35,371 nt of DNA from Rhodobacteraceae bacterium HLUCCA12 (GTDB lineage: Bacteria > Pseudomonadota > Alphaproteobacteria > Rhodobacterales > Rhodobacteraceae). This document shows positions 22,792 to 32,895 of this stretch, in pieces. Where the stretch lies: positions 1 through 35,371 of the forward strand of contig LJSV01000026.1 in assembly GCA_001314715.1 (NCBI GenBank). The letters run 5' to 3'. The notes below the pieces were generated by a model that made no database searches, was not told the origin of the DNA, and was given only the letters and a program-made list of their open reading frames with translations. Every line of letters starts with the position of its first letter. Within the stretch, counting starts at the first letter, position 1. A program made the translations under genes and the position numbers.

Positions 22792-25563
22792 TTATTCCGC
22801 CTCGGCGTTCTCGCGCGCCTTCTCGACCCGCACGGCTGCGAACTTGAATTCGGGGATCTTGCCATAGGGGTCAAGTGCCGGGTTGGTCAGGATGTTCGCC
22901 GCGGCCTCGACAAAGGCGAAGGGCAGGAACACCATGTTTTCGCTGACCGAACGATCGGCGCGGGCCAGCAACTCGATCGTGCCGCGCCGCGTGCTCAGAC
23001 GCACACGCCCGCCCGGCGCGACCCCAAGGTGTCGCAAGGTGGCCGGGTGCAGCGAACAATTCGCCTCGGGCTCGACGGCATCGAGGACGCGCGAACGCCG
23101 CGTCATCGAACCGGTGTGCCAGTGTTCCAACTGGCGCCCGGTGGTCAGGACCATCGGATAGTCGGCATCGGGCAATTCGTCGGGCGCGATGATGCGGGCG
23201 GGGGTAAAGCGTGCGCGGCCCGAAGGGCGCGGAAAGCCATCGCCAAAGACAATCGCCTGCCCCGGATCGTCGGGCGCAAGCGAGGGATAGGTCACCGCGC
23301 CTTCGCGCTCCAGCCGGTCCCAGGTGATGTTGGACAGCGATTTCATGGTCAGCGCCATTTCGGCAAAGACTTCGCGCGGGTGCTGATAGGTCCAGTTCAG
23401 CCCCAGCCGCTTGGCCAGTTCCGCCGTGACCGCCCAGTCGGCGCGCGCCTGTCCGGGCGGCGGCAGCGCCGCACGGCCCAGTTGCACCTGACGGTTGGTG
23501 TTCGTCACCGTCCCGGTCTTTTCATAGAACGCGGCGGCGGGCAGGATCACATCGGCATAGTTCGCGGTTTCGGTCAGAAAGATGTCTTGCACCACCAGAT
23601 GTTCCAGCGCCGCCAGCGCCTCGCGCGCATGGGTGACATCTGGGTCGGACATGGCCGGGTTTTCGCCCAGAATATACATGCCCTTGATCTGGCCGTCATG
23701 CACGGCATCCAGGATCTCGGTCACGGTCAGGCCCTTTTCGCCCGAAAATTCGGTATTGTCCCACAAACTGACGAAGCGTTCGCGGATCCGGTCGTCGGAC
23801 ACGTTCTGGTAATCGGGCAGGAACATCGGGATCAGCCCGGCATCCGAGGCCCCCTGCACGTTGTTCTGCCCCCTGAGCGGGTGCAACCCGGTGCCGGGCC
23901 GCCCGACATGGCCGCACATCAGGGCCAGCGAGATCAGGCAGCGCGAGTTGTCGGTGCCGTGGATATGCTGCGACACGCCCATGCCCCAGAAGATCATCCC
24001 GGCGCGCGACGTGGCGAAGTCGTGCGCCACCGCGCGCAGCGTCTCGGCGGGGATGCCGCAAACCGGTTCCATCGCCTCGGGCGAGAAATCGGCCAGATGC
24101 GATGTCATCGCCTCCCAGTTCTCGGTCATGGCCTGGATATACTGCCGGTCGGCCAGCCCTTCGGTCACGATCACATGCATGATCGCGTTGAGCATGGCGA
24201 CATCCGCGCCCGGCTTGAACTGCAACATATGCGTCGCGTGGCGCTTGAGGGCCTGGCCGCGCGGGTCCATCACGATCAGCTTGCCGCCGCGCTTGGCGAA
24301 TTGCTTGAAATAGGTTGCGGCAACGGGGTGGTTCTCGACCGGGTTGGCGCCGATGACGATGGCGCAATCGGCATTTGCGATCTCGTTGAAGGTGGCCGTC
24401 ACCGCGCCCGAACCCACATTCTCCATCAGCGCCGCCACCGATGAGGCGTGGCACAGGCGCGTGCAGTGATCGACATTGTTGTGGCCGAATCCCTGGCGGA
24501 TCAGCTTCTGGAACAGATAAGCCTCTTCGTTCGAGCATTTGGCCGATCCAAAGCCCGCGACGGCAGCGCCGCCATGGGTCTCGGCCAGCCGTTTCAGCCC
24601 GCCCGCGGCGGCGTCCAGCGCCTCGTCCCAGCTGGCCTCGCGGAAATGGGTCAGCGGGTTTTCGGGGTCCACGTCGAGCCCCTTGGGGGCGTCGTCGCGC
24701 CGGATCAGCGGCACGGTCAGCCGGTGCGGGTGGTGGATGTAGTCAAAGCCGAACCGGCCCTTGACGCACAACCGCGCCTCGTTCGCGGGGCCGTTGATGC
24801 CCTCGACATGGGTGATCCGCCCGTCCCGGACCTTGAGCGAGACCTGACAGCCCACGCCGCAGAACGGGCAGATCGAACGGGTTTCGTGCTCATGCGCGGC
24901 ACTGTCGCCCTGTTGCGCGTCGTCCAGCACGGTTGCCGGCATCAGCGCGCCGGTGGGGCAGGCCTGCACGCATTCGCCGCAGGCGACACAGGTGCTGTCG
25001 CCCATCGGGTCGTCGAAATCGAACACCGGCCAGGCGTCATGGCCGCGCCCGGCCATGCCGATCACGTCGTTGACCTGCACCTCGCGGCAGGCGCGCACGC
25101 ACAGCCCGCACTGGATACAGGCATCCAGGTTGACGCGCATGGCCACATGGCTGTCGTCCGGGACCGGGATGCGCCCGGCCTCCAGCGTCGGAAAGCGGTT
25201 GTCGTGAACGCCCTGTGCCTCGGCCATGGCCCACAGATGGCTGGAGCGGTCATGCGCCGCCGCCCGTTCGGGCTGGTCGGCCAGCAACAGCTCCATTACC
25301 AGAGCGCGCGATTTCCTGGCGCGTTCGGTCGCGGTATGCACCACCATCCCCTCGGCCGGTTCGCGGATGCATGATGCCGCCAGAACACGCTCGCCCTCGA
25401 TCTCGACCATGCAGGCGCGGCAGTTGCCGTCGGGGCGATAGCCGGCCGCGGGTTTGTGGCACAGATGCGGAATGACCAGTCCACGGCCGTTGGCGACCTC
25501 CCAGATGGTCTGGCCGGGTTCGGCGGTGACGTCGCGGCCATCGAGTGTGAATGTGACGCTCAT
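22792..25563 (-). CDS. fdsA: NAD-dependent formate dehydrogenase, catalytic (Mo/W) alpha subunit
   Basis: A 923-residue soluble formate dehydrogenase subunit that oxidises formate to CO2 at a bis-MGD molybdenum or tungsten site. The N-terminal [2Fe-2S] domain has C35, C48, C51 and C65. Two ferredoxin-like clusters follow in 'DACIQCGLCVRACREVQ' and 'STCVACGECVQACPTG', then the FdhF-type cluster in 'ICPFCGVGC' (from C232). The active-site pair is C371-H372 in 'DHCTRLCHASS', matching C378/H379 of the C. necator enzyme, so it is a cysteine, not selenocysteine, enzyme. The C-terminal molybdopterin-binding domain is present. It overlaps the cupin gene by four bases (ATGA). Mo versus W cannot be decided from sequence. 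Confidence 0.93.
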   Translation of the reverse strand: MSVTFTLDGRDVTAEPGQTIWEVANGRGLVIPHLCHKPAAGYRPDGNCRACMVEIEGERVLAASCIREPAEGMVVHTATERARKSRALVMELLLADQPERAAAHDRSSHLWAMAEAQGVHDNRFPTLEAGRIPVPDDSHVAMRVNLDACIQCGLCVRACREVQVNDVIGMAGRGHDAWPVFDFDDPMGDSTCVACGECVQACPTGALMPATVLDDAQQGDSAAHEHETRSICPFCGVGCQVSLKVRDGRITHVEGINGPANEARLCVKGRFGFDYIHHPHRLTVPLIRRDDAPKGLDVDPENPLTHFREASWDEALDAAAGGLKRLAETHGGAAVAGFGSAKCSNEEAYLFQKLIRQGFGHNNVDHCTRLCHASSVAALMENVGSGAVTATFNEIANADCAIVIGANPVENHPVAATYFKQFAKRGGKLIVMDPRGQALKRHATHMLQFKPGADVAMLNAIMHVIVTEGLADRQYIQAMTENWEAMTSHLADFSPEAMEPVCGIPAETLRAVAHDFATSRAGMIFWGMGVSQHIHGTDNSRCLISLALMCGHVGRPGTGLHPLRGQNNVQGASDAGLIPMFLPDYQNVSDDRIRERFVSLWDNTEFSGEKGLTVTEILDAVHDGQIKGMYILGENPAMSDPDVTHAREALAALEHLVVQDIFLTETANYADVILPAAAFYEKTGTVTNTNRQVQLGRAALPPPGQARADWAVTAELAKRLGLNWTYQHPREVFAEMALTMKSLSNITWDRLEREGAVTYPSLAPDDPGQAIVFGDGFPRPSGRARFTPARIIAPDELPDADYPMVLTTGRQLEHWHTGSMTRRSRVLDAVEPEANCSLHPATLRHLGVAPGGRVRLSTRRGTIELLARADRSVSENMVFLPFAFVEAAANILTNPALDPYGKIPEFKFAAVRVEKARENAEAE

Positions 25564-25844
25564 GTCTTGATCTCGATTTCCATGAAGCTCAGCGGTGCGT
25601 CAGCGCCATTGATCACGTTGTGCGACACCCCTGCCGGGCGCGAATAGGGTACGCCCATCTGCAACGCGGTCTCGCTGATCGTTCCGGTGTCGTCGGCGAT
25701 GCGCAGCAGCCCGTCGGTCAGCGGGACGATCACATAGGGCAGGGCGTGGACATGGTGGCCGGTCTCGTCGCCGGGACCGAAATCGAAACGCGTTACCAGA
25801 ACGCGTGCGTCGTCGATCAGTCGGGTTGCCTTTGCCTGTGCCAT
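25560..25844 (-). CDS. Small cupin protein inside the formate dehydrogenase operon
   Basis: A 94-residue single-domain cupin. The first motif is 'FGPGDETGHHVHALPYVIVPL' (residues about 22-42), with the G-x4-H-x-H pattern; the second is 'GVPYSRPAGVSHNVING' (about 64-80). Likely metal ligands are H30, H31 or H33 and H75. It resembles small 'beta-alanine degradation BauB-like' cupins, but no function is assigned. The start at 25844 overlaps the stop of the upstream subunit gene as TGATG, and its own stop overlaps the fdsA start as ATGA, so all three are translated together. This position suggests a role tied to the enzyme, its cofactor or its substrate. Confidence 0.85.
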   Translation of the reverse strand: MAQAKATRLIDDARVLVTRFDFGPGDETGHHVHALPYVIVPLTDGLLRIADDTGTISETALQMGVPYSRPAGVSHNVINGADAPLSFMEIEIKT

Positions 25845-27553
25845 CAGATCTCCTCGGGGAAATGTTGCATCACCAGCCGGATCGGGTTCGGCGCGGCCTG
25901 ACCCAGCCCGCAGATCGAGGCATCGGCCATGACGGTGCACAATTCATCCAGCAGGTCGCGGTTCCAATGCGGCGCCTGCATCAGCTTGACCGCCTTTTCG
26001 CAGCCTGCCCGGCAGGGGGTGCACTGGCCGCAGCTTTCATCCTCGAAAAAGCGCAGCATGTTCAGCGCCGCGTCGCGCGCGGAGTCGTGATCCGAAAGAA
26101 CCACCACCGCGGCCGAGCCGATGAAACTGCCATGCGGTTGCAACGTGTCGAAATCCAGCGGCACGTCGGACAGGCTGGCCGGCAGCAGCCCCGAGGACGG
26201 CCCGCCCGGCTGATAGGCCTTGAACCTGTGCCCTTTGGCCATGCCGCCGGCGGCGTCGATGATGTCGGTGATGGTCGATCCGGCAGGCAACAGGTAGACA
26301 CCGGGCTGCGCCACCCGGCCACTGACCGAATAGCTGCGCAAGCCCTTGCGCCCGTTCTTTTCAACCGAATTCAGGATCTGCGGCCCTTCGCGGCAGATGC
26401 GCGCGATCCAGTGCAGCGTTTCGACATTGTGCACCAGCGTCGGCTGGCCGAACAGGCCGACCTGCGCAACATAGGGGGGACGATGGCGCGGAAGGCCGCG
26501 CTTGCCCTCGATCGATTCCAGCATCGCGCTTTCTTCGCCGCAGATATAGGCCCCGGCCCCGCGCCGCAGTTCAATGTATCCGGGCGCGGCGATCCCCGCG
26601 GCCTCAAGCGCGGCGATCTCGCGGCGCAGGATTTCCAGCACCGCCGGGTATTCGTCGCGCATGTAGAGATAGCAGCGCTCGGCCTCGACCGCCCAGGCCG
26701 CGATCAGCATCCCCTCCAGCATCAGATGCGGCGTGCGCTCCAGGTAGTAGCGATCCTTGAAGGTTCCCGGCTCGCCCTCGTCACCATTCACCGCCAGGTA
26801 GCGCGGCCCCGGATTGGCGCGCACGAACCCCCATTTCTTGCCCGAGGGGAAGCCCGCACCACCCAGCCCGCGCAGACCGGCCTCCAGCAGCGTCTGCTGC
26901 ACCGCTTCCCAGTTGCCACCGGCGCGCAGGGCGTCCAGCCGGGCATAACCACCCGTGGCGCGATACGCCTCCAGCCCTTCGTAATCGGGGATCACGGGAT
27001 GAAAATCGCCGGTTGCGATGATTTCGGCGATGGCCTCGGGCGTGGCGTGATCGACGTGGCGGTGGCCCAGTTCGACCACCGGGGCGGTGTCGCACCGGCC
27101 CATGCAGGGCGCGCGCAACACGCGCACCCGCGCCGGGTCATGGCCAGCCTCAAGGGCCTTCAGCAAGGCTTCGGCCCCCGCAATCTCGCACGCCAGCGAG
27201 TCGCAGACGCGGATCGTCAGGTCGGGTGGCGGGGTGTCACCCTCGCGGATCGGATCGAAATGGGCGTAAAAGGTCGCGACCTCCCAGACCTCGGCCATCG
27301 ACAGGCGCATCTCATGCGCCAGTGCACGCAGATGCGGGGCGGACAGGTGGCCATGGGCATCCTGGATCAGGTGCAGGAACTCGATCAAGAGATCGCGCCG
27401 GCGGGGCCGGTCGCCCAGAAGCGAACAGATTTCGGCATGGGCGTCATCGTCAAGCTGCCGGCCCTTGGGCGTGGCCCGGCCCTTGCCGCGGCCCGATTTC
27501 CAGACGCCGCGCTGTGGCTCTGCCCCGGGGTCGGCCTTGTCCAGCGGTGCCAT
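25844..27553 (-). CDS. fdsB: Formate dehydrogenase beta subunit, fused NuoE-NuoF type (FdsG-FdsB)
   Basis: A 569-residue fusion that carries electrons from the catalytic subunit to NAD+. Residues about 25-165 are thioredoxin-like NuoE/FdsG with [2Fe-2S] cysteines in 'VCDSLACEIAG' and 'APCMGRCDTAP'. The rest is NuoF/FdsB with the NADH loop 'GLGGAGFPSGKKWGF', the FMN-site 'NGDEGEPGTFKDR', 'GAGAYICGEESAMLESIEG', and the [4Fe-4S] cysteines in 'ESCGQCTPCRAGC' and 'SICGL'. The arrangement matches the fused beta subunit of Methylobacterium FDH1. The ATG at 27553 has AAAGGA six bases upstream; a GTG at 27577 is an in-frame alternative. It is the first gene of the operon. A separate FdsD gene was not found. 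Confidence 0.94.
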   Translation of the reverse strand: MAPLDKADPGAEPQRGVWKSGRGKGRATPKGRQLDDDAHAEICSLLGDRPRRRDLLIEFLHLIQDAHGHLSAPHLRALAHEMRLSMAEVWEVATFYAHFDPIREGDTPPPDLTIRVCDSLACEIAGAEALLKALEAGHDPARVRVLRAPCMGRCDTAPVVELGHRHVDHATPEAIAEIIATGDFHPVIPDYEGLEAYRATGGYARLDALRAGGNWEAVQQTLLEAGLRGLGGAGFPSGKKWGFVRANPGPRYLAVNGDEGEPGTFKDRYYLERTPHLMLEGMLIAAWAVEAERCYLYMRDEYPAVLEILRREIAALEAAGIAAPGYIELRRGAGAYICGEESAMLESIEGKRGLPRHRPPYVAQVGLFGQPTLVHNVETLHWIARICREGPQILNSVEKNGRKGLRSYSVSGRVAQPGVYLLPAGSTITDIIDAAGGMAKGHRFKAYQPGGPSSGLLPASLSDVPLDFDTLQPHGSFIGSAAVVVLSDHDSARDAALNMLRFFEDESCGQCTPCRAGCEKAVKLMQAPHWNRDLLDELCTVMADASICGLGQAAPNPIRLVMQHFPEEI

Positions 27554-27591
27554 GCCTGTTCCTTTCGGTTCTGCCACGCGGTTCTGCGGGC

Positions 27592-27727: not shown

Positions 27728-28246
27728 TCAAGCGACCTTTTCGCCATGCGCCACCTGGGCGCGGCACCAGTCGATCACCGCATCGGCTTGCGGCGGCAGG
27801 GGCGTGCCCATCCCCTCGCTGAAGGTTTCGAAACCGTCCAGGTTGACCTTGTTCACCGCGGTCAGAACCGGAACGCCGGTCGCCAGCGCGTGGCCGATCA
27901 CCGGGCGGAAGCCGCGGCCCTCCAGCTCGGCCTTGCCGAACTTGTTGATCAGCAGAAGCTTCGGTCCCTGCTCAAGTGCGCGTTCGACCAGGCCCACGGC
28001 CTCTTCCAGGCCCTGCGGGTCCAGCCGGCAACCGCGCGACATTGGGCCAAGGCTTTGCGAGATGCGCACCCGCGCGGCCATCGCCAGAACCTGAAGGTCC
28101 ATATCGCAGCGGGTCGCGGGCCCGGTGTCGGAATTGATCTGCACGACACCGGCCAGCGGCCAGCCCTCGGCGCCCAGGCGGGCCGCAACCTCGGCCATGA
28201 GCCGGTCAACCGCCCCGCGTTCCGCGCCGATCACATATCCCAGCAT
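27728..28246 (-). CDS. DUF2478 domain-containing protein
   Basis: A 172-residue protein of the DUF2478 family, which has a P-loop-NTPase-like fold and is usually encoded among molybdenum-related genes. The phosphate-binding loop is degenerate here ('MLGYVIGAERGAVDRLMAEV' has no GKT/S). The later strand and loop 'KLLLINKFGKAELEGRGFRP' is the most conserved part of the family. Residues 'CDMDLQVLA' and 'SRGCRLD' contain the two conserved cysteines. The longer frame to 28405 runs into the fdhD region; the ATG at 28246 with the hydrophobic 'LGYVIG' strand is the natural start. It is divergent from fdhD and follows the formate dehydrogenase promoter region, suggesting a part in cofactor handling. 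Confidence 0.82.
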   Translation of the reverse strand: MLGYVIGAERGAVDRLMAEVAARLGAEGWPLAGVVQINSDTGPATRCDMDLQVLAMAARVRISQSLGPMSRGCRLDPQGLEEAVGLVERALEQGPKLLLINKFGKAELEGRGFRPVIGHALATGVPVLTAVNKVNLDGFETFSEGMGTPLPPQADAVIDWCRAQVAHGEKVA

Positions 28247-28284
28247 CGCCCTGCGCGCCCCCGTCTTGCAACCGCGGCCAGCCC

Positions 28285-28313
28285 TTGTCTGGCCCATCGG
28301 CCTGATACATAGT
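28285..28313 (+). promoter_or_regulatory. Predicted fdhD-moeA operon promoter
   Basis: TTGTCT (28285-28290) and CATAGT (28308-28313) are separated by 17 bases. A small inverted repeat GTCCC-AC-GGGAC (28312-28323) covers the end of the -10 region. The fdhD ATG follows at 28338. Confidence 0.5.
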
Positions 28314-28337
28314 CCCACGGGACCAGAAAGACAGTTC

Positions 28338-29210
28338 ATGATCAAGCCCCTTCCGCTTCTTCCCGACCCGGCCGCGCCGCGCCTGACCCGGCGCATCAGT
28401 GGCACCGATCACACCGGTGCCGCGCTCGATATCAGCGTGGTCGAGGAACGCCCCTTGACGATCTTTCTGAACGCGCAGGAGATCGTCACCGCCATGACCA
28501 TCGGGGATTACCCCGAATACCTGGCGCTGGGGTTTCTGCGTAATCAGGGGATGCTGCGCGCCGATGACGTGGTGACGGGCGTCGATTATGACGACGAGAT
28601 CGAAACCGTCGTCGTGCGGACCCGGCGCGCGACCTCGTATGAGGAAAAGGTGAAAAAGAAGACCCGCACCTCGGGCTGTGCGGTGGGCACGGTCTTTGGC
28701 GACATGATGGAGGGGCTGGAGGGGCTGACGCTGCCGCCGGCAGAGCTGCGCACAAGCTGGCTTTACGCGCTGGCCAAGGCCGTCAACACCACCCCCTCGC
28801 TTTACCTGGAGGCCGGGGCGATCCATGGCACGGTGCTGTGCCGGCGCGACCAGATGCTGGTCTACATGGAGGATGTCGGCCGCCACAACGCGGTCGACAA
28901 GATCGCGGGCTGGATGTTTCGCCATGACGAAGGCGGGGCCGACAAGATCCTGTACACGACGGGCCGGCTGACCTCGGAAATGGTGATCAAGACCGCGCAG
29001 ATGGGCATTCCGGTGCTGGCTTCGCGCTCGGGCTTCACCGCATGGGGCGTCGAGATCGCGCGCCAGACGGGATTGACATTGATCGGGCGGATGCGCGGGC
29101 AACGTTTTGTCTGCCTGTCGGGCGAGGATCGGCTGATCCGCGATGCCGACCTTGCGCAGATTGGCGAGGAAAGCGCGCGCCACCGACGCAAGGCCGCGCA
29201 GGATGACTGA
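28338..29210 (+). CDS. fdhD: Formate dehydrogenase accessory sulfurtransferase
   Basis: A 290-residue FdhD/FdsC family protein that supplies sulfur to the bis-MGD cofactor before it is inserted into formate dehydrogenase. Family marks are 'VVEERPLTIFLNAQEIVTAM' (about residues 34-53), 'YPEYLALGFLRNQGML', 'MEDVGRHNAVDKIAGWM', 'YTTGRLTSEMVIKTAQMGIPVLASRSG' and 'GLTLIGRMRGQRF'. The usual C-x-x-C loop reads 'TSGCAVG': C114 is kept but the second cysteine is glycine. The N-terminal extension of the open frame is not needed; the ATG at 28338 fits the family. It overlaps the next gene by eight bases. It serves the divergent formate dehydrogenase genes. Confidence 0.95.
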   Translation: MIKPLPLLPDPAAPRLTRRISGTDHTGAALDISVVEERPLTIFLNAQEIVTAMTIGDYPEYLALGFLRNQGMLRADDVVTGVDYDDEIETVVVRTRRATSYEEKVKKKTRTSGCAVGTVFGDMMEGLEGLTLPPAELRTSWLYALAKAVNTTPSLYLEAGAIHGTVLCRRDQMLVYMEDVGRHNAVDKIAGWMFRHDEGGADKILYTTGRLTSEMVIKTAQMGIPVLASRSGFTAWGVEIARQTGLTLIGRMRGQRFVCLSGEDRLIRDADLAQIGEESARHRRKAAQDD

Positions 29211-29628
29211 GACGGTCGCGCCCGCACGCATCGCGCAGGCCCTGGAGGCCGCGCGCGCGTTGATCGCGGTGCATGGCGCCGAGGGGCGACACCACATCGC
29301 GGCGGCGGTGCTGAGCGATGACGGGGCGATGCACCTGGGCATCAGCCTGGAATCGACGGTTCGCTGGGCGTCGATCTGCGCCGAACCGGGCGCGGTGTCG
29401 CGCGCCATGATCGACGCGCCGGGCGCTGCCATCATCGCCACGATCGCGGTCAATCGCGACGGCGCGATCGTGCCGCCGTGTTCGCGCTGCCGCGAGTTGC
29501 TGGCCGATTTCGCCCCACATGCGCAGATCGCGCTGCCCGACCCGGCGGGATGGCGGCTGGTGGCACTGGCGTCGCTCATGCCCTATCCATACAAGGGGTT
29601 GCTGCGGTTCGATGGAGATCAGGCATGA
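29203..29628 (+). CDS. Cytidine-deaminase-like zinc protein in the cofactor operon
   Basis: A 141-residue protein with the cytidine deaminase fold. The zinc and catalytic residues are C59-A60-E61 in 'WASICAEPGAVSRAM' and C93/C96 in 'PPCSRCRELLADF', the standard C-A-E plus P-C-x-x-C set of homotetrameric cytidine deaminases and blasticidin-S deaminases. The substrate is not known; pyrimidine nucleosides are possible. It starts eight bases inside the end of fdhD and overlaps mobA by four bases (ATGA), so it is translated within a formate dehydrogenase/molybdenum cofactor operon. Whether it works on the cytosine form of the cofactor, on guanine nucleotides or on something unrelated is open. Confidence 0.85.
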   Translation: MTETVAPARIAQALEAARALIAVHGAEGRHHIAAAVLSDDGAMHLGISLESTVRWASICAEPGAVSRAMIDAPGAAIIATIAVNRDGAIVPPCSRCRELLADFAPHAQIALPDPAGWRLVALASLMPYPYKGLLRFDGDQA

Positions 29629-30236
29629 GCGCGGTTCTGGGCGTGATCCTTGCCGGCGGGCAAGCGACGCGGATGGGCGGTGGCGACAAGGGATTGCGCG
29701 TGGTCGCCCATGCCCGGCTCATGGATCATGTGATCGACCGGCTGGCGCCACAGGTCGCGGCGCTGGCGATCAACGCCAACGGCGACCCGGCGCGGCTGGC
29801 CGAGTTTGGCCTGCCGATCCTGCCCGACACCGTGCCCGACCATCCCGGCCCGCTGGCCGGGGTGCTGGCCGGGCTGGATTGGGCGGCGGGGCAGGGCGCG
29901 CGCGCGATCGTGACGGCGGCGGCGGATACGCCGTTCTTTCCGCGCGATCTGGTGGCGCGTTTGCAGGCGGCCGCGGGCCCCTCGGGCCTGGCGCTTGCCG
30001 CCAGCCCCGATGCCGAAGGCACGATCCGCCGTCACCCGACCTTTGGCCTGTGGCCTGTGGACCTGCGCGCGGATCTGCGCGCGGCCCTGGCGCAGGGGCT
30101 TCGCAAGATCGTGCTCTGGACCGATCGCCATGGCGCCGGGCAGGCAGTGTTTCCATCGGATCCGTTCGATCCGTTTTTCAACGTCAACACCCCCGAGGAC
30201 ATTTTGCGCGCCCAGGAACTGGCGGGGCGGGTATGA
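29625..30236 (+). CDS. mobA: Molybdenum cofactor guanylyltransferase
   Basis: A 203-residue nucleotidyltransferase that links GMP from GTP to molybdopterin to form MGD, the cofactor needed by formate dehydrogenase. The nucleotide loop 'LAGGQATRMGGGDKGL' is at residues 9-24, matching the MobA signature L-A-G-G-x-x-x-R-M-G-G-x-D-K. The 'PDHPGPLAGVLAGLDWA' segment and the metal aspartate in 'AAADTPFFP' follow. The end 'FFNVNTPEDILRAQ' is conserved. The ATG at 29625 overlaps the previous stop. It overlaps mobB by four bases. Confidence 0.96.
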   Translation: MSAVLGVILAGGQATRMGGGDKGLRVVAHARLMDHVIDRLAPQVAALAINANGDPARLAEFGLPILPDTVPDHPGPLAGVLAGLDWAAGQGARAIVTAAADTPFFPRDLVARLQAAAGPSGLALAASPDAEGTIRRHPTFGLWPVDLRADLRAALAQGLRKIVLWTDRHGAGQAVFPSDPFDPFFNVNTPEDILRAQELAGRV

Positions 30237-30748
30237 AGGTCTATGGCGTCACCGGCTGGAAAAACACCGGCAAGACCGGCCTGATGGAGCGGCTGGTCAC
30301 AGAGATCACGGCGCGCGGCCTGTCGGTTTCGACGATCAAGCATGCCCACCACGACACCGAGATCGACCATCCGGGGCGCGACAGCCATCGCCACCGCCAG
30401 GCCGGTGCGCGCGAGGTGCTGGTTTCTTCCCCCGTGCGCTGGGCCTTGATGCACGAATTGCGCGGCGCGAATGAGCCCTCTCTGGACGATCTGCTGGCGC
30501 GGCTTTCGCCCGTCGATCTGGTTCTGATCGAGGGCTACAAGCGCGCGCCCCATCCCAAGATCGAGGCCCACCGCGTTGAAACCGGCCGCGACTTGCTTGC
30601 CGTACACAGCCCGAGCGTGCGCGCGCTCGCCAGCAATGCGGATCCGGGCGATCCGGTGCTGGCCGGTCTGACGGTGCCGGTTCTGGCGCTTGACGATACC
30701 TGCGCGATCGCCGATTTCCTCCTTCGCGACCTGGGGTTTGCATCATGA
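30233..30748 (+). CDS. mobB: Molybdopterin-guanine dinucleotide biosynthesis adapter protein
   Basis: A 171-residue P-loop GTP-binding protein that assists MobA. The Walker A motif is 'GWKNTGKT' at residues 8-15. 'STIKHAHHDTEIDHPGRDSHRHRQAGA' is the conserved histidine-rich switch of MobB, and 'LVLIEGYKRAPHPKIE' carries the Walker-B-like strand. Length and order fit stand-alone MobB. Four-base overlaps with mobA upstream and with the moeA fusion downstream indicate strict co-translation. Confidence 0.95.
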   Translation: MKVYGVTGWKNTGKTGLMERLVTEITARGLSVSTIKHAHHDTEIDHPGRDSHRHRQAGAREVLVSSPVRWALMHELRGANEPSLDDLLARLSPVDLVLIEGYKRAPHPKIEAHRVETGRDLLAVHSPSVRALASNADPGDPVLAGLTVPVLALDDTCAIADFLLRDLGFAS

Positions 30749-32895
30749 GATTTGATCGTATCGCCATTCTGGACTGGTCTGCAGCCTCAAGTCCCAAACG
30801 CGGCAAGGATTCGATATGGCTTGGCCTTGCCGGACCGGATGGCGTGCGCGCCGAAAACCTGCCCACGCGGTCCGCCGCCGAGGACCGGCTGCGGACCCTG
30901 ATTCAGGCGGCACTTGATGCGGGCGAACGGCTGCTGATCGGCGCCGATTTTGCCTTTGGCTATCCCGCGGGATTTGCCGCGCATCTGACCGGCCGGGCCC
31001 AGTCGCTGGCGGTCTGGGAGTGGCTGGCGGGGGCGATCGCGGACGACGCGCAGAACCGATCGAACCGGCTGGCCGTCGCCGCAGGGATCAATCGGCGTTT
31101 TCCGGGGGCGGGGCCGTTCTGGTTCAACCCGACCCGGCTGGATCTGCCTGACCTGCCGCGTCGCGCAAGTGCGTGCCAGGGTCACGGCGATCTGGCCGAA
31201 TTCCGTGCGACCGACCGCGCCGCGCGTGGCGCACAATCGGTCTGGAAGCTGGGCGGGGCCGGTGCGGTAGGCAGTCAGACCCTGACCGGCTTGCCGGTCC
31301 TGTGGCGGCTGCGCGGCGGCTTTGCCGGGCAGGTGGCCGTCTGGCCGTTCGAGCCGGTGGAAACGTCCCCCGTCGTGCTGGCCGAGGTCTTCCCATCCGT
31401 CCTTTCCGCGCAGGTCGAAAGCGTCATGAGCGCGCAGCCGATGGTGCGGGATGAAGCGCAGGTGAGGCTTCTGGCGGAAACGCTCTGGCACGTGCAGGCG
31501 ACGGATGCGGGGCTGGCCGCGCTGTTTGCCATGCCGCGCGACGCCAAAGTGCATGAAGAAGGGTGGATTCTGGGTGCCGGCCACGAGGCCACATTGAAAA
31601 CCGCCGCGCAACAGGTGGCCCAACCCGCCGGCCTGACCCCGCCGCGCCTGCGCGATGATTGTTTCGCCATGCCGCAAGGGGTGGAATGGGTGCCGGTGGA
31701 TGAGGCATTGGGGCGCCTGCGCGCGGCTCTGGTGCCGCTGACCGGGGTCGAGACCGTGGCGCTTGCGCAGGCCGGTGGCCGGGTGCTGGCATCGGATGCC
31801 ACGGCCCGCCGCGCCAACCCGCCTCAGGCGAACGCGGCCGTCGATGGCTATGGCTTTGCCCATGCCGCGCTGGACGGGCCCGGCCCCTATACCCTGCCGC
31901 TGGTCGCCGGGCGGGCGGCGGCGGGGCAGCCCCTGGCCGATGCGGTGCCGCCGGGGCAGGCGGTGCGCATCCTGACCGGCGCGATCCTGCCGCAGGGCGT
32001 GGATACCGTCGTGCTGGACGAGGATTGCGCCACTGACGGTCATCGCGTGGCCTTTGACGGGCCGGTCAGGCCGCGCGCCAATACCCGCCGCGCGGGCGAG
32101 GATGTGGCGGCAGGCGCCATGGCCCTGGCGCCGGGCCGGGTGCTTGGTGCGCCCGATCTGGCGCTCATGTCGGCGCTTGGCATCGGGCAGGCGACGGTCT
32201 TTCGCAGGTTGCGCGTTGGCGTCTTGTCCACCGGCGACGAGATCGTCGCCAACCCGGCCGCCCCGGCCGCGCCGCACCAGGTTTTCGACGCCAACCGCCC
32301 CATGCTTATGGACATCGCGCGCCGCTGGGGGTTCGTGCCGGTCGATCTGGGCCATGCGCCCGACGACCCCGCGCGCATCGCCGCGGCGCTGGATCGCGGC
32401 GCGCGCGAGGCCGATGTGATCCTGACCTCCGGCGGGGCCTCGGCCGGGGATGAGGACCATGTTTCGCGCCTGCTGCGAGACCGCGGCACCTTGTCAAGCT
32501 GGCGCATCGCCCTCAAGCCCGGACGACCGCTGGCATTGGCCTTGTGGAATGGTGTGCCGGTGCTGGGGCTTCCTGGAAACCCGGTTGCGGCCTTTGTCTG
32601 CACACTGATCTTCGGTCGTCCGACCCTGTCGCGGATGGCCGGCAGCGGATGGCGGCAACCGCAAGGCTTTGATGTGCCCGCGGCCTTTTCCAAGACCAAG
32701 AAGCCGGGCCGGCGCGAATACCTGCGCGCACGGATCAATGCCCATGGCGCGGCCGAGGTGTTCGCCTCGGAAGGGTCGGGCCGGATCAGCGGGTTGAGCT
32801 GGGCCGACGGGCTGGTGGAACTGCCCGACGATGCGGCGCAGATTGAGCCGGGAACGCCCGTACGCTATCTGCCGTTCGCAAGCTTCGGCTTGTGA
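30745..32895 (+). CDS. moeA: Fusion: uncharacterised N-terminal domain + MoeA molybdenum insertase
   Basis: A 716-residue protein made of two parts. Residues about 295-716 are a complete MoeA that inserts molybdate into adenylylated molybdopterin: 'AAVDGYGF' (365-371), 'VRILTGAILPQGVDTVV' (407-423), 'RPRANTRRAGEDV' (442-454), 'STGDEI' (495-500), 'TSGGASAGDEDHV' (561-573) and 'KPGRPLALA...GLPGNPVAAF' (591-617). Residues 1 to about 290 are a separate domain not found in ordinary MoeA. It has acidic residues D10 ('AILDWSAASS'), D68 ('LIGADFAFGYP'), E214 ('VVLAEVFPS') and 'EEGWILGAG' near 271-279, spaced like an RNase H-fold (DUF429-like) protein; that assignment is tentative. It overlaps mobB by four bases. 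No frameshift is seen, so the fusion is real. Confidence 0.92.
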   Translation: MRFDRIAILDWSAASSPKRGKDSIWLGLAGPDGVRAENLPTRSAAEDRLRTLIQAALDAGERLLIGADFAFGYPAGFAAHLTGRAQSLAVWEWLAGAIADDAQNRSNRLAVAAGINRRFPGAGPFWFNPTRLDLPDLPRRASACQGHGDLAEFRATDRAARGAQSVWKLGGAGAVGSQTLTGLPVLWRLRGGFAGQVAVWPFEPVETSPVVLAEVFPSVLSAQVESVMSAQPMVRDEAQVRLLAETLWHVQATDAGLAALFAMPRDAKVHEEGWILGAGHEATLKTAAQQVAQPAGLTPPRLRDDCFAMPQGVEWVPVDEALGRLRAALVPLTGVETVALAQAGGRVLASDATARRANPPQANAAVDGYGFAHAALDGPGPYTLPLVAGRAAAGQPLADAVPPGQAVRILTGAILPQGVDTVVLDEDCATDGHRVAFDGPVRPRANTRRAGEDVAAGAMALAPGRVLGAPDLALMSALGIGQATVFRRLRVGVLSTGDEIVANPAAPAAPHQVFDANRPMLMDIARRWGFVPVDLGHAPDDPARIAAALDRGAREADVILTSGGASAGDEDHVSRLLRDRGTLSSWRIALKPGRPLALALWNGVPVLGLPGNPVAAFVCTLIFGRPTLSRMAGSGWRQPQGFDVPAAFSKTKKPGRREYLRARINAHGAAEVFASEGSGRISGLSWADGLVELPDDAAQIEPGTPVRYLPFASFGL

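Follow-up and report, generated by a model that had tools for sequence, protein, structure and literature searches.

A widespread, unnamed domain of metal-cofactor operons, joined to a tungsten-type MoeA in Rhodobacteraceae bacterium HLUCCA12

What does an additional domain of no named function do at the front of a molybdenum or tungsten insertase? This question is raised by a contig of Rhodobacteraceae bacterium HLUCCA12 (GenBank assembly GCA_001314715.1, LJSV01000026.1), analysed over its full 35,371 nucleotides and referred to here as the window. The last gene of a formate dehydrogenase (FDH) maturation operon in this window encodes a complete MoeA preceded by a further N-terminal domain, here called X. 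Found widely in metal-cofactor operons, this module has no name and is carried here on a tungsten-type MoeA. Our preferred reading, held tentatively, is that X may be an accessory metal-dependent hydrolase of late cofactor assembly, which would work at the MobA/MobB end of the pathway and is fused here to a separable tungsten-type MoeA.

The fused gene is a single uninterrupted frame of 716 codons at 30745-32895 (+). It is the last in the order fdhD, a cytidine-deaminase-like gene (CDA), mobA, mobB and X-moeA, with an ATG that overlaps the stop codon of mobB. The one-frame fusion and its place at the end of an fdhD-mobAB operon, both claimed in a preliminary description of this DNA, are thus borne out. 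That description had also set MoeA at about residues 295-716. The MoeA is indeed complete, with all three domains in order and each above its Pfam cut-off (MoeA_N at 316-479, 3.6e-35; MoCF_biosynth at 492-629, 6.6e-27; MoeA_C at 644-711, 3.1e-14), and E. coli MoeA aligns with it at 4.7e-64; its start is instead placed near residue 305-316. Residues 1-315 gave no Pfam match at E<=1. The features of the gene are as follows.

30745 to 31620, + strand: domain X, residues 1 to about 292, predicted to be RNase H-like, of no Pfam family, conserved in many alphaproteobacteria
30772 to 30774, + strand: D10, end of strand 1 (secondary structure assigned by DSSP on the model), 167/167 sequences
30946 to 30948, + strand: D68, just after strand 4 in the model, 167/167
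31384 to 31386, + strand: E214, end of the last core strand in the model, 167/167
31450 to 31452, + strand: D236, start of helix 235-251 in the model, 166/166 ungapped
31558 to 31560, + strand: E272 of the EEGW motif, 164/164 ungapped
31621 to 31689, + strand: linker to MoeA, ending in a 'LRDDCFAMPQGV.W.PVDEA'-type MoeA start, of varying length among 64 fusions
31690 to 32892, + strand: complete MoeA, residues 316-716, molybdenum/tungsten insertase by Pfam and the match to E. coli MoeA
32524 to 32526, + strand: R594 (KPGR), aligned with the E. coli MoeA K282 position and matching MoeA1 Arg291 as given in passages of PMC13197769
32587 to 32589, + strand: A615, aligned with the E. coli MoeA S303 position and matching MoeA1 Ala312 from the same passages

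An artefact of frame or assembly is ruled out, since the same fusion recurs on a Pararhodobacter contig (locus L005; X 74% identical, MoeA 84%) and in 64 of the 118 classified X loci of other genomes of the family. For the single pair formed by the window and L005, with synonymous divergence (dS) near 1, the ratio of nonsynonymous to synonymous differences per site (pN/pS) is 0.28 for X and 0.21 for MoeA, and both halves look to be under purifying selection. Between the last residue of the EEGWILG motif (278) and the beginning of MoeA_N (about 316-317), the 64 fusions have 22 to 53 residues. The HLUCCA12 genome holds two further MoeA copies, both without X, and a search of it for a second X found none.

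Two pocket residues suggest which metal the MoeA half handles. Passages of a study of Methylorubrum extorquens describe MoeA1 as a tungsten insertase, name Arg291 and Ala312 as the pocket residues that favour tungstate, and report that the FDH of this organism carries tungsten and requires MoeA1, MobB and FdhD (PMC13197769). In the window, R594 and A615 align with K282 and S303 of E. coli MoeA, at the same spacing of 21 residues as the MoeA1 pair. Arginine and alanine (R/A) thus replace the canonical Lys/Ser of the oxyanion pocket at both positions, as in MoeA1, and the FDH type is also shared. The R/A signature is found in 63 of 64 X-MoeA proteins (the remaining one has T and a gap), in 10/10 separate MoeA near X and in 28/29 operon MoeA without X, where the remaining one has a gap and is probably a copy cut by a contig end. 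None of 22 MoeA paralogues carries it, and K stands first in all 22 (K/S in 18 and K/A in 2 from elsewhere; of HLUCCA12's own two, one is K/S and one K/A). On these residues and its neighbours, the MoeA half is of the tungsten insertase type and belongs to an FDH maturation operon (fdhD-mobA-mobB-moeA) next to an FDH of the tungsten FDH1 type, here FDH1. From the R/A signature and the FDH type, we infer that HLUCCA12 uses tungsten.

The likeness to MoeA1 extends to MobB, MobA and FdhD, which are given as its partners and are operon neighbours of the window X-MoeA, whereas the passages on MoeA1 describe no N-terminal X (PMC13197769). The MobB-MoeA fusion of NCBIfam PRK14491 is likewise a MoeA with an N-terminal partner, but this partner is MobB rather than X. 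Direct MobB-MoeA fusion is also seen in X-less relatives of the same family, in 11/29 operon MoeA (L130-L136, L138, L139, L143 and L157).

Turning to X itself, the sole named model that matches it is NCBIfam NF011066 (PRK14495), a 'MobB/unknown domain fusion protein', whose positions 167-450 match X residues 3-287 at 8.6e-65. Its C-terminal part is X and its N-terminal part matches the window MobB at 6.8e-56. The window protein differs in carrying X on MoeA instead of MobB, and scores 219.5 bits against a curated cut-off of 596 bits for the whole fusion. The model assigns no function to the X part. An ordinary MoeA extension or a Mob domain was considered and rejected, as Pfam gave no match and local profile comparison returned 0.2% for MobB and 0.1-1.2% for MoeA. 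A sequence search for solved structures related to X gave none at E<=10.

D10, D68 and E214, singled out in the preliminary description, are identical in all 167 aligned X sequences, window included. E272, in the EEGW motif noted there, is invariant in 164/164 ungapped sequences, and D236 in 166/166. All five carboxylates, together with W11, R154 and G176, are fully conserved (100%) in every context class, also where X is fused to MoeA. Across the 167 sequences, P201, like W11, R154 and G176, is at 100% after rounding, and N116, W126, Q178 and G277 are at 99%; the alignment omits L013, L014, L029 and short or weak rows. Because the five carboxylates are invariant in every context class, X probably works as an enzyme and has a predicted carboxylate, metal-type site.

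Which fold carries this site? An AlphaFold2 model of X built with 25 sequences has a predicted local distance difference test (pLDDT) of 94.3 and a predicted template modelling score (pTM) of 0.93. It shows strands at 5-10, 24-30 and 33-39, a helix at 42-58, a strand at 63-67 and then a long insert, after which come a helix at 175-192, strands at 197-199 and 210-214, and further helices. This order of strands (b) and helices (a), b1-b2-b3-aA-b4...b5, is the one expected of the RNase H-like fold. D10 ends b1, D68 lies just past b4 and E214 ends the last strand; D10 and D68 thus provide the conserved acidic residues on strands 1 and 4 that characterise the RNase H-like superfamily. The 50 entries listed by Foldseek against the PDB are RNase H-like nucleases, integrases, RuvC, reverse transcriptases and two sugar kinases, multi-domain entries being taken as a whole. 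The core of sugar kinases is related to the RNase H-like core. A second model, led by a relative from a cobalamin context, has the same order of main elements (pLDDT 92.7), and its neighbours are mostly reverse transcriptases, with RNase H, YqgF, a terminase, an integrase, kinases and a phosphatase. A viral structure library gave only weak matches (best E 0.042); Pol fragments, RNase H and terminases make up many of these, and some are unrelated or unnamed. An RNase H-like fold of X is therefore likely as judged from the models. Of the RNase H-type fold put forward in the preliminary description, the element order and the kinds of neighbours stand, while the structural matches are weak (best E 0.031).

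The same description had named DUF429 as an example of such a fold, and this identity is not upheld. DUF429 (PF04250) has no Pfam match at E<=1 in the X-MoeA protein or in the HLUCCA12 genome. Local profile-profile comparison of X with nine DUF429 sequences gave a probability of 1.3% over 14 columns; with 167 X and 32 DUF429 sequences it gave 4.6% over 44 columns (0.04% in global mode), and after addition of a sister group 7.4-7.5% over 44 columns (0.2% for the sister group alone). Controls in local mode returned 0.2% for MobB and 1.2% and 0.1-0.2% for MoeA, and a global-mode MoeA control of 18.9% over six linker columns is taken as an end artefact. Membership of X in DUF429 is not borne out, given the absent Pfam match and a profile-profile probability of no more than 7.5%. 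Kinship is possible from the sequences, the shared stretch being confined to the strand-4 motif (DFAFGYP against DMPIGLP). X resembles the DUF429 group, as placed in the RNase H-like superfamily in passages of a survey, in its RNase H-type element order, in acidic residues that close strand 1 and follow strand 4, and in a 'DxPxGxP'-like motif, but it lacks a significant sequence or profile match and has a long insert and D236 and E272 motifs of its own (PMC3985635). A sequence search for a solved relative of DUF429 gave none at E<=1.

The genomic company kept by X offers a further line of evidence. X was matched in 176 of 295 genomes of the family, with at most 8 candidates scored per genome for X and at most 4 for FDH1, so that absence in either scan is not proof. 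From the 176 X-positive genomes, 120 loci were drawn, mostly in rank order with some skipped rather than at random; because flanks span 6-9 kb and some contigs are cut shorter, neighbours may have gone undetected. Two loci (L119 and L205) had no X under the BLAST cut-off and were left out, which leaves 118 classified loci: 64 with an X-MoeA fusion, 4 with a MobB-X fusion, 11 with an X-CbiC fusion and 39 with X as a separate gene. All 11 X-CbiC fusions are arranged CbiX, X-CbiC, CbiG. The 39 separate genes comprise 8 with a separate MoeA nearby, 20 with MobA and/or MobB but no MoeA, 1 beside Cbi genes and 10 with no Mob, MoeA or Cbi query genes nearby; one of the ten (G459) comes from the same genus as HLUCCA12, and the search found no FDH1 in it. 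Classified loci in which mobB, X and moeA were all found have X in the middle. A stand-alone X near a separate moeA, an arrangement that the preliminary description had proposed to look for, is seen in 8/118.

For example, Salipiger sp. CCB-MM3 has fused X with FDH genes downstream, and Ruegeria sp. TM1040 has X as a separate gene. In public plasmid records, the product is annotated as 'gephyrin-like molybdotransferase Glp' when fused and as 'hypothetical protein' when X is separate. As many as 34 changes of context label have to be assumed on the X tree and 26 changes of fusion state on the MoeA tree, with many branches unsupported. A single origin of the fusion is not upheld by these weakly resolved trees, and on the sequences the fusion state is labile.

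Could X then be only a tether or scaffold that joins MobB and MoeA, or CbiX and CbiC? The position of X at the MobB/MoeA junction, the direct MobB-MoeA fusions of X-less operons (11/29) and the frequent flips in fusion state (26 on the weakly resolved tree) would fit, as would the MoeA1-MobB interaction reported for M. extorquens from a two-hybrid assay in passages of PMC13197769. Against it stand the five acidic residues that never vary in any context class, purifying selection (seen in one pair) and the occurrence of X as a separate gene in 39/118 loci, and we regard this explanation as very improbable.

Beyond the family, an initial scan of GTDB genomes gave 25 loci with X. Fifteen of these, with 20 of 38 matching genomes from a further search, make up 35 wider loci from the class and other phyla. 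Twelve lie near cobalamin genes, three after an RsuA-type gene and one near MobA, the cobalamin query genes being named by family models (CbiX, CbiC, CbiG, CobL as CbiE/CbiT, CobA, CobQ and a CobB/CobQ-type amidotransferase). In L015, L023 and L027, which are loci of alphaproteobacterial metagenome-assembled genomes (MAGs), X follows a gene for an S4/RsuA-type pseudouridine synthase. Stand-alone X also occurs in MAG contigs binned as Acidobacteria, Actinobacteria and Planctomycetes (L022, L026 and L028), where misbinning is possible. On a plasmid of Azospirillum sp. B510 (L342, 2477-6879), the gene for a distant relative of X (26.6% identical) runs into the 3' end of a DNA polymerase III alpha gene. 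Riboswitch control as a link between X contexts was rejected, as no Rfam match at the gathering threshold was found in six sources (the window and five related loci).

These contexts raise the question of whether X is a genuine RNA or DNA nuclease whose link to cofactor operons is regulatory or incidental, through processing of operon mRNA or nucleic-acid repair, for instance. The predicted fold, the overlap with DNA polymerase III alpha in Azospirillum and the position after an RsuA-type rRNA pseudouridine synthase in 3/35 wider loci all lend themselves to this explanation, and nuclease activity was predicted for the similar DUF429 group in passages of the Nucleic Acids Research survey of 2014 (PMC3985635). 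In-frame fusion to MoeA, MobB and CbiC is nevertheless hard to explain for a general nuclease, the Rfam search gave nothing in the window or the five related loci, and the near-invariant, non-acidic W11, R154, G176, Q178 and P201 look like a specific pocket. A nuclease is thus unlikely.

Does X instead go with metal insertion and the tungsten FDH? With FDH1 presence set by eye at E under 1e-150, a limit under which some ten genomes at 1e-169 to 1e-209 also count, the 295 genomes divide into 117 with X and FDH1, 59 with X only, 63 with FDH1 only and 56 with neither, a weak association. The contexts separate more clearly. Where X is fused to or near MoeA, FDH1 is present in 64/72 genomes; where X accompanies MobA/MobB with no MoeA there, it is present in 0/20, and the best match to the window MoeA in those 20 genomes is at most 40% identical. 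Conversely, among 30 X-less FDH1-positive genomes, picked in list order and not at random, 28 have an operon MoeA without X (29 loci, as one genome has two); of the other two, G247 has no MoeA match and G269 a paralogue-like MoeA only. FDH1 and tungsten-type MoeA therefore travel together, X can accompany MobA/MobB alone, and the fusion joins both. Since X-less operons keep the R/A MoeA and X occurs beside MobA/MobB without it, X is not tied to the insertase. By these patterns, X appears to be an optional module whose presence tracks MobA/MobB and not metal insertion. X as a tungsten-specific factor is rejected on the same two observations.

The preliminary description had argued that covalent linkage implies a role at or near the MoeA step, and as stated this does not stand: X-less operons have the same MoeA, and neither it nor FDH1 was found in the 20 genomes with X beside MobA/MobB and no MoeA there. 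It had also held that its proposal would fail if orthologous MoeA functioned equally well without the domain and the acidic residues were not conserved. Orthologous MoeA does exist without X, and FDH1 in those genomes suggests that it works just as well there; the acidic residues are, however, conserved.

A broader form of that idea is that X regulates, delivers or gates metal at the insertion step common to its neighbours, MoeA for molybdenum or tungsten and CbiX as cobaltochelatase. Such a role would suit the fusion to MoeA in 64/118 loci and the place of X between CbiX and CbiC in 11/118 ('CbiX X-CbiC CbiG'). Set against it are the 20/118 loci where X accompanies MobA/MobB with no MoeA and the X-less operons that retain the same tungsten-type MoeA. 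As a matter of general chemistry, moreover, a carboxylate site fits divalent cations, not molybdate or tungstate. This role is improbable.

An accessory hydrolase at the MobA/MobB end thus remains the reading we lean towards. X would be an optional accessory enzyme whose five carboxylates (D10, D68, E214, D236 and E272) most likely bind divalent metal ions. The metal-type site and the fold together suggest metal-dependent hydrolysis of phosphate bonds, so that X may hydrolyse a phosphate ester or phosphoanhydride. Phosphate compounds near MobA and MobB include guanosine triphosphate (GTP), adenylylated molybdopterin (MPT-AMP) and molybdopterin guanine dinucleotide (MGD). X would act with that end of the pathway, in nucleotide attachment and hand-off, more than in metal insertion, and its task would probably be housekeeping or quality control, by hydrolysis of a nucleotide or of a phosphorylated intermediate; in many genomes it is tethered to a neighbour (MobB, MoeA or CbiC). 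There is precedent for this in passages of PMC4921024: several fused domains of initially obscure role in cofactor pathways turned out to be hydrolases, pyrophosphatases or phosphatases, although the same table includes a kinase and an adenylyl transferase, and such domains in vitamin pathways were often, though not in every case, hydrolases that serve repair or overflow.

Several points weigh against such a hydrolase. Activity, substrate and metal binding of X are all putative. The Foldseek matches are weak (best E 0.031, listed probability at most 0.54) and weaker still for the second model (best E 0.10, with two glycosidases among the matches), and kinship with DUF429 is not demonstrated by profile comparison (at most 7.5%). 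FDH1 occurs without detected X in 63/180 FDH1-positive genomes, and 7/64 X-MoeA genomes lack detected FDH1. Among the 35 wider loci, 18 have no query gene near X and 1 more has a stray luciferase-type match only. In cobalamin operons, X sits between CbiX and CbiC, at steps without a nucleotide, and a common nucleotide substrate is not obvious; X may act there in repair of another compound, in metal handling or in nucleic-acid cleavage.

A bolder extension is that X founds an unrecognised enzyme family that carries out the same kind of reaction in two unrelated pathways, molybdo/tungstopterin and corrin, and is fused to an enzyme of each. The reaction could serve to mend or remove an intermediate that is damaged or carries the wrong metal, or it could be a hydrolytic step not yet assigned; we consider this extension conceivable but doubtful. 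Among the titles and abstracts listed by searches of an open-access library, none describes X, X-MoeA or X-CbiC, and none names PRK14495. One of the listed papers, PMC5395568, contains moeA, mobB and DUF429. A 2025 study of MoeA evolution treats MogA-MoeA fusions; X is absent from the 12 (of 21) passages on fusion that were covered, and MobB appears nowhere in its text (PMC11733289). According to passages of PMC13197769, the last stages in making molybdenum and tungsten cofactors are still open, as is the job of MobB. A strictly conserved, enzyme-like domain that occurs in both the molybdenum/tungsten and the vitamin B12 pathway, in frame with enzymes of each, is a concrete candidate for a missing or repair function, with a bearing on the production of tungsten FDHs for CO2 reduction. 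As X is present in named strains under 'Glp' or 'hypothetical protein' labels, the question is testable.

The remaining genes of the locus lie upstream of X-moeA. On the opposite strand are a DUF2478 gene, FDH beta, a small cupin gene and FDH alpha.

30233 to 30748, + strand: mobB (Pfam MobB, 8e-48), its stop overlapping the X-MoeA start
29625 to 30236, + strand: mobA, molybdenum cofactor guanylyltransferase (TIGR02665, 197.7 bits, above cut-off)
29143 to 29628, + strand: cytidine-deaminase-like gene, below Pfam and NCBIfam cut-offs (best NCBIfam 1.2e-16)
28125 to 29210, + strand: fdhD open frame, FDH sulfurtransferase (Pfam FdhD-NarQ, 2.2e-73)
27728 to 28405, - strand: DUF2478 gene, divergent from fdhD (Pfam, 1.9e-53)
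25844 to 27577, - strand: FDH1 beta, of the type of M. extorquens tungsten FDH beta (7e5z_B 698.7 bits vs 6tg9_B 241.9)
25560 to 25844, - strand: cupin gene, 94 residues, between FDH beta and alpha
22792 to 25563, - strand: FDH1 alpha, best solved chain 7vw6_A, a tungsten-containing FDH alpha (1382.5 bits vs 605 for 6tg9_A)

We take 7vw6 and 7e5z to be the M. extorquens FDH and 6tg9 the R. capsulatus FDH. By these scores, the neighbouring FDH is of the tungsten FDH1 type, closest to tungsten FDH1 in both subunits; its beta subunit is a NuoE-NuoF type fusion. The true start of fdhD is probably near 28335. The 94-residue cupin gene was not found by tblastn (E<=1e-3) in 11 related FDH1 loci. The window FDH genes are divergent from fdhD, while 11/118 related loci have the FDH beta and alpha genes behind X-MoeA (or X and MoeA), all on one strand. 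A DUF2478 gene also adjoins MobA-X in several Pseudotabrizicola and other loci. The cytidine-deaminase-like gene, here between fdhD and mobA, was detected at 3/120 related loci, and Ruegeria sp. TM1040 has a 'hypothetical protein' gene in the corresponding position.

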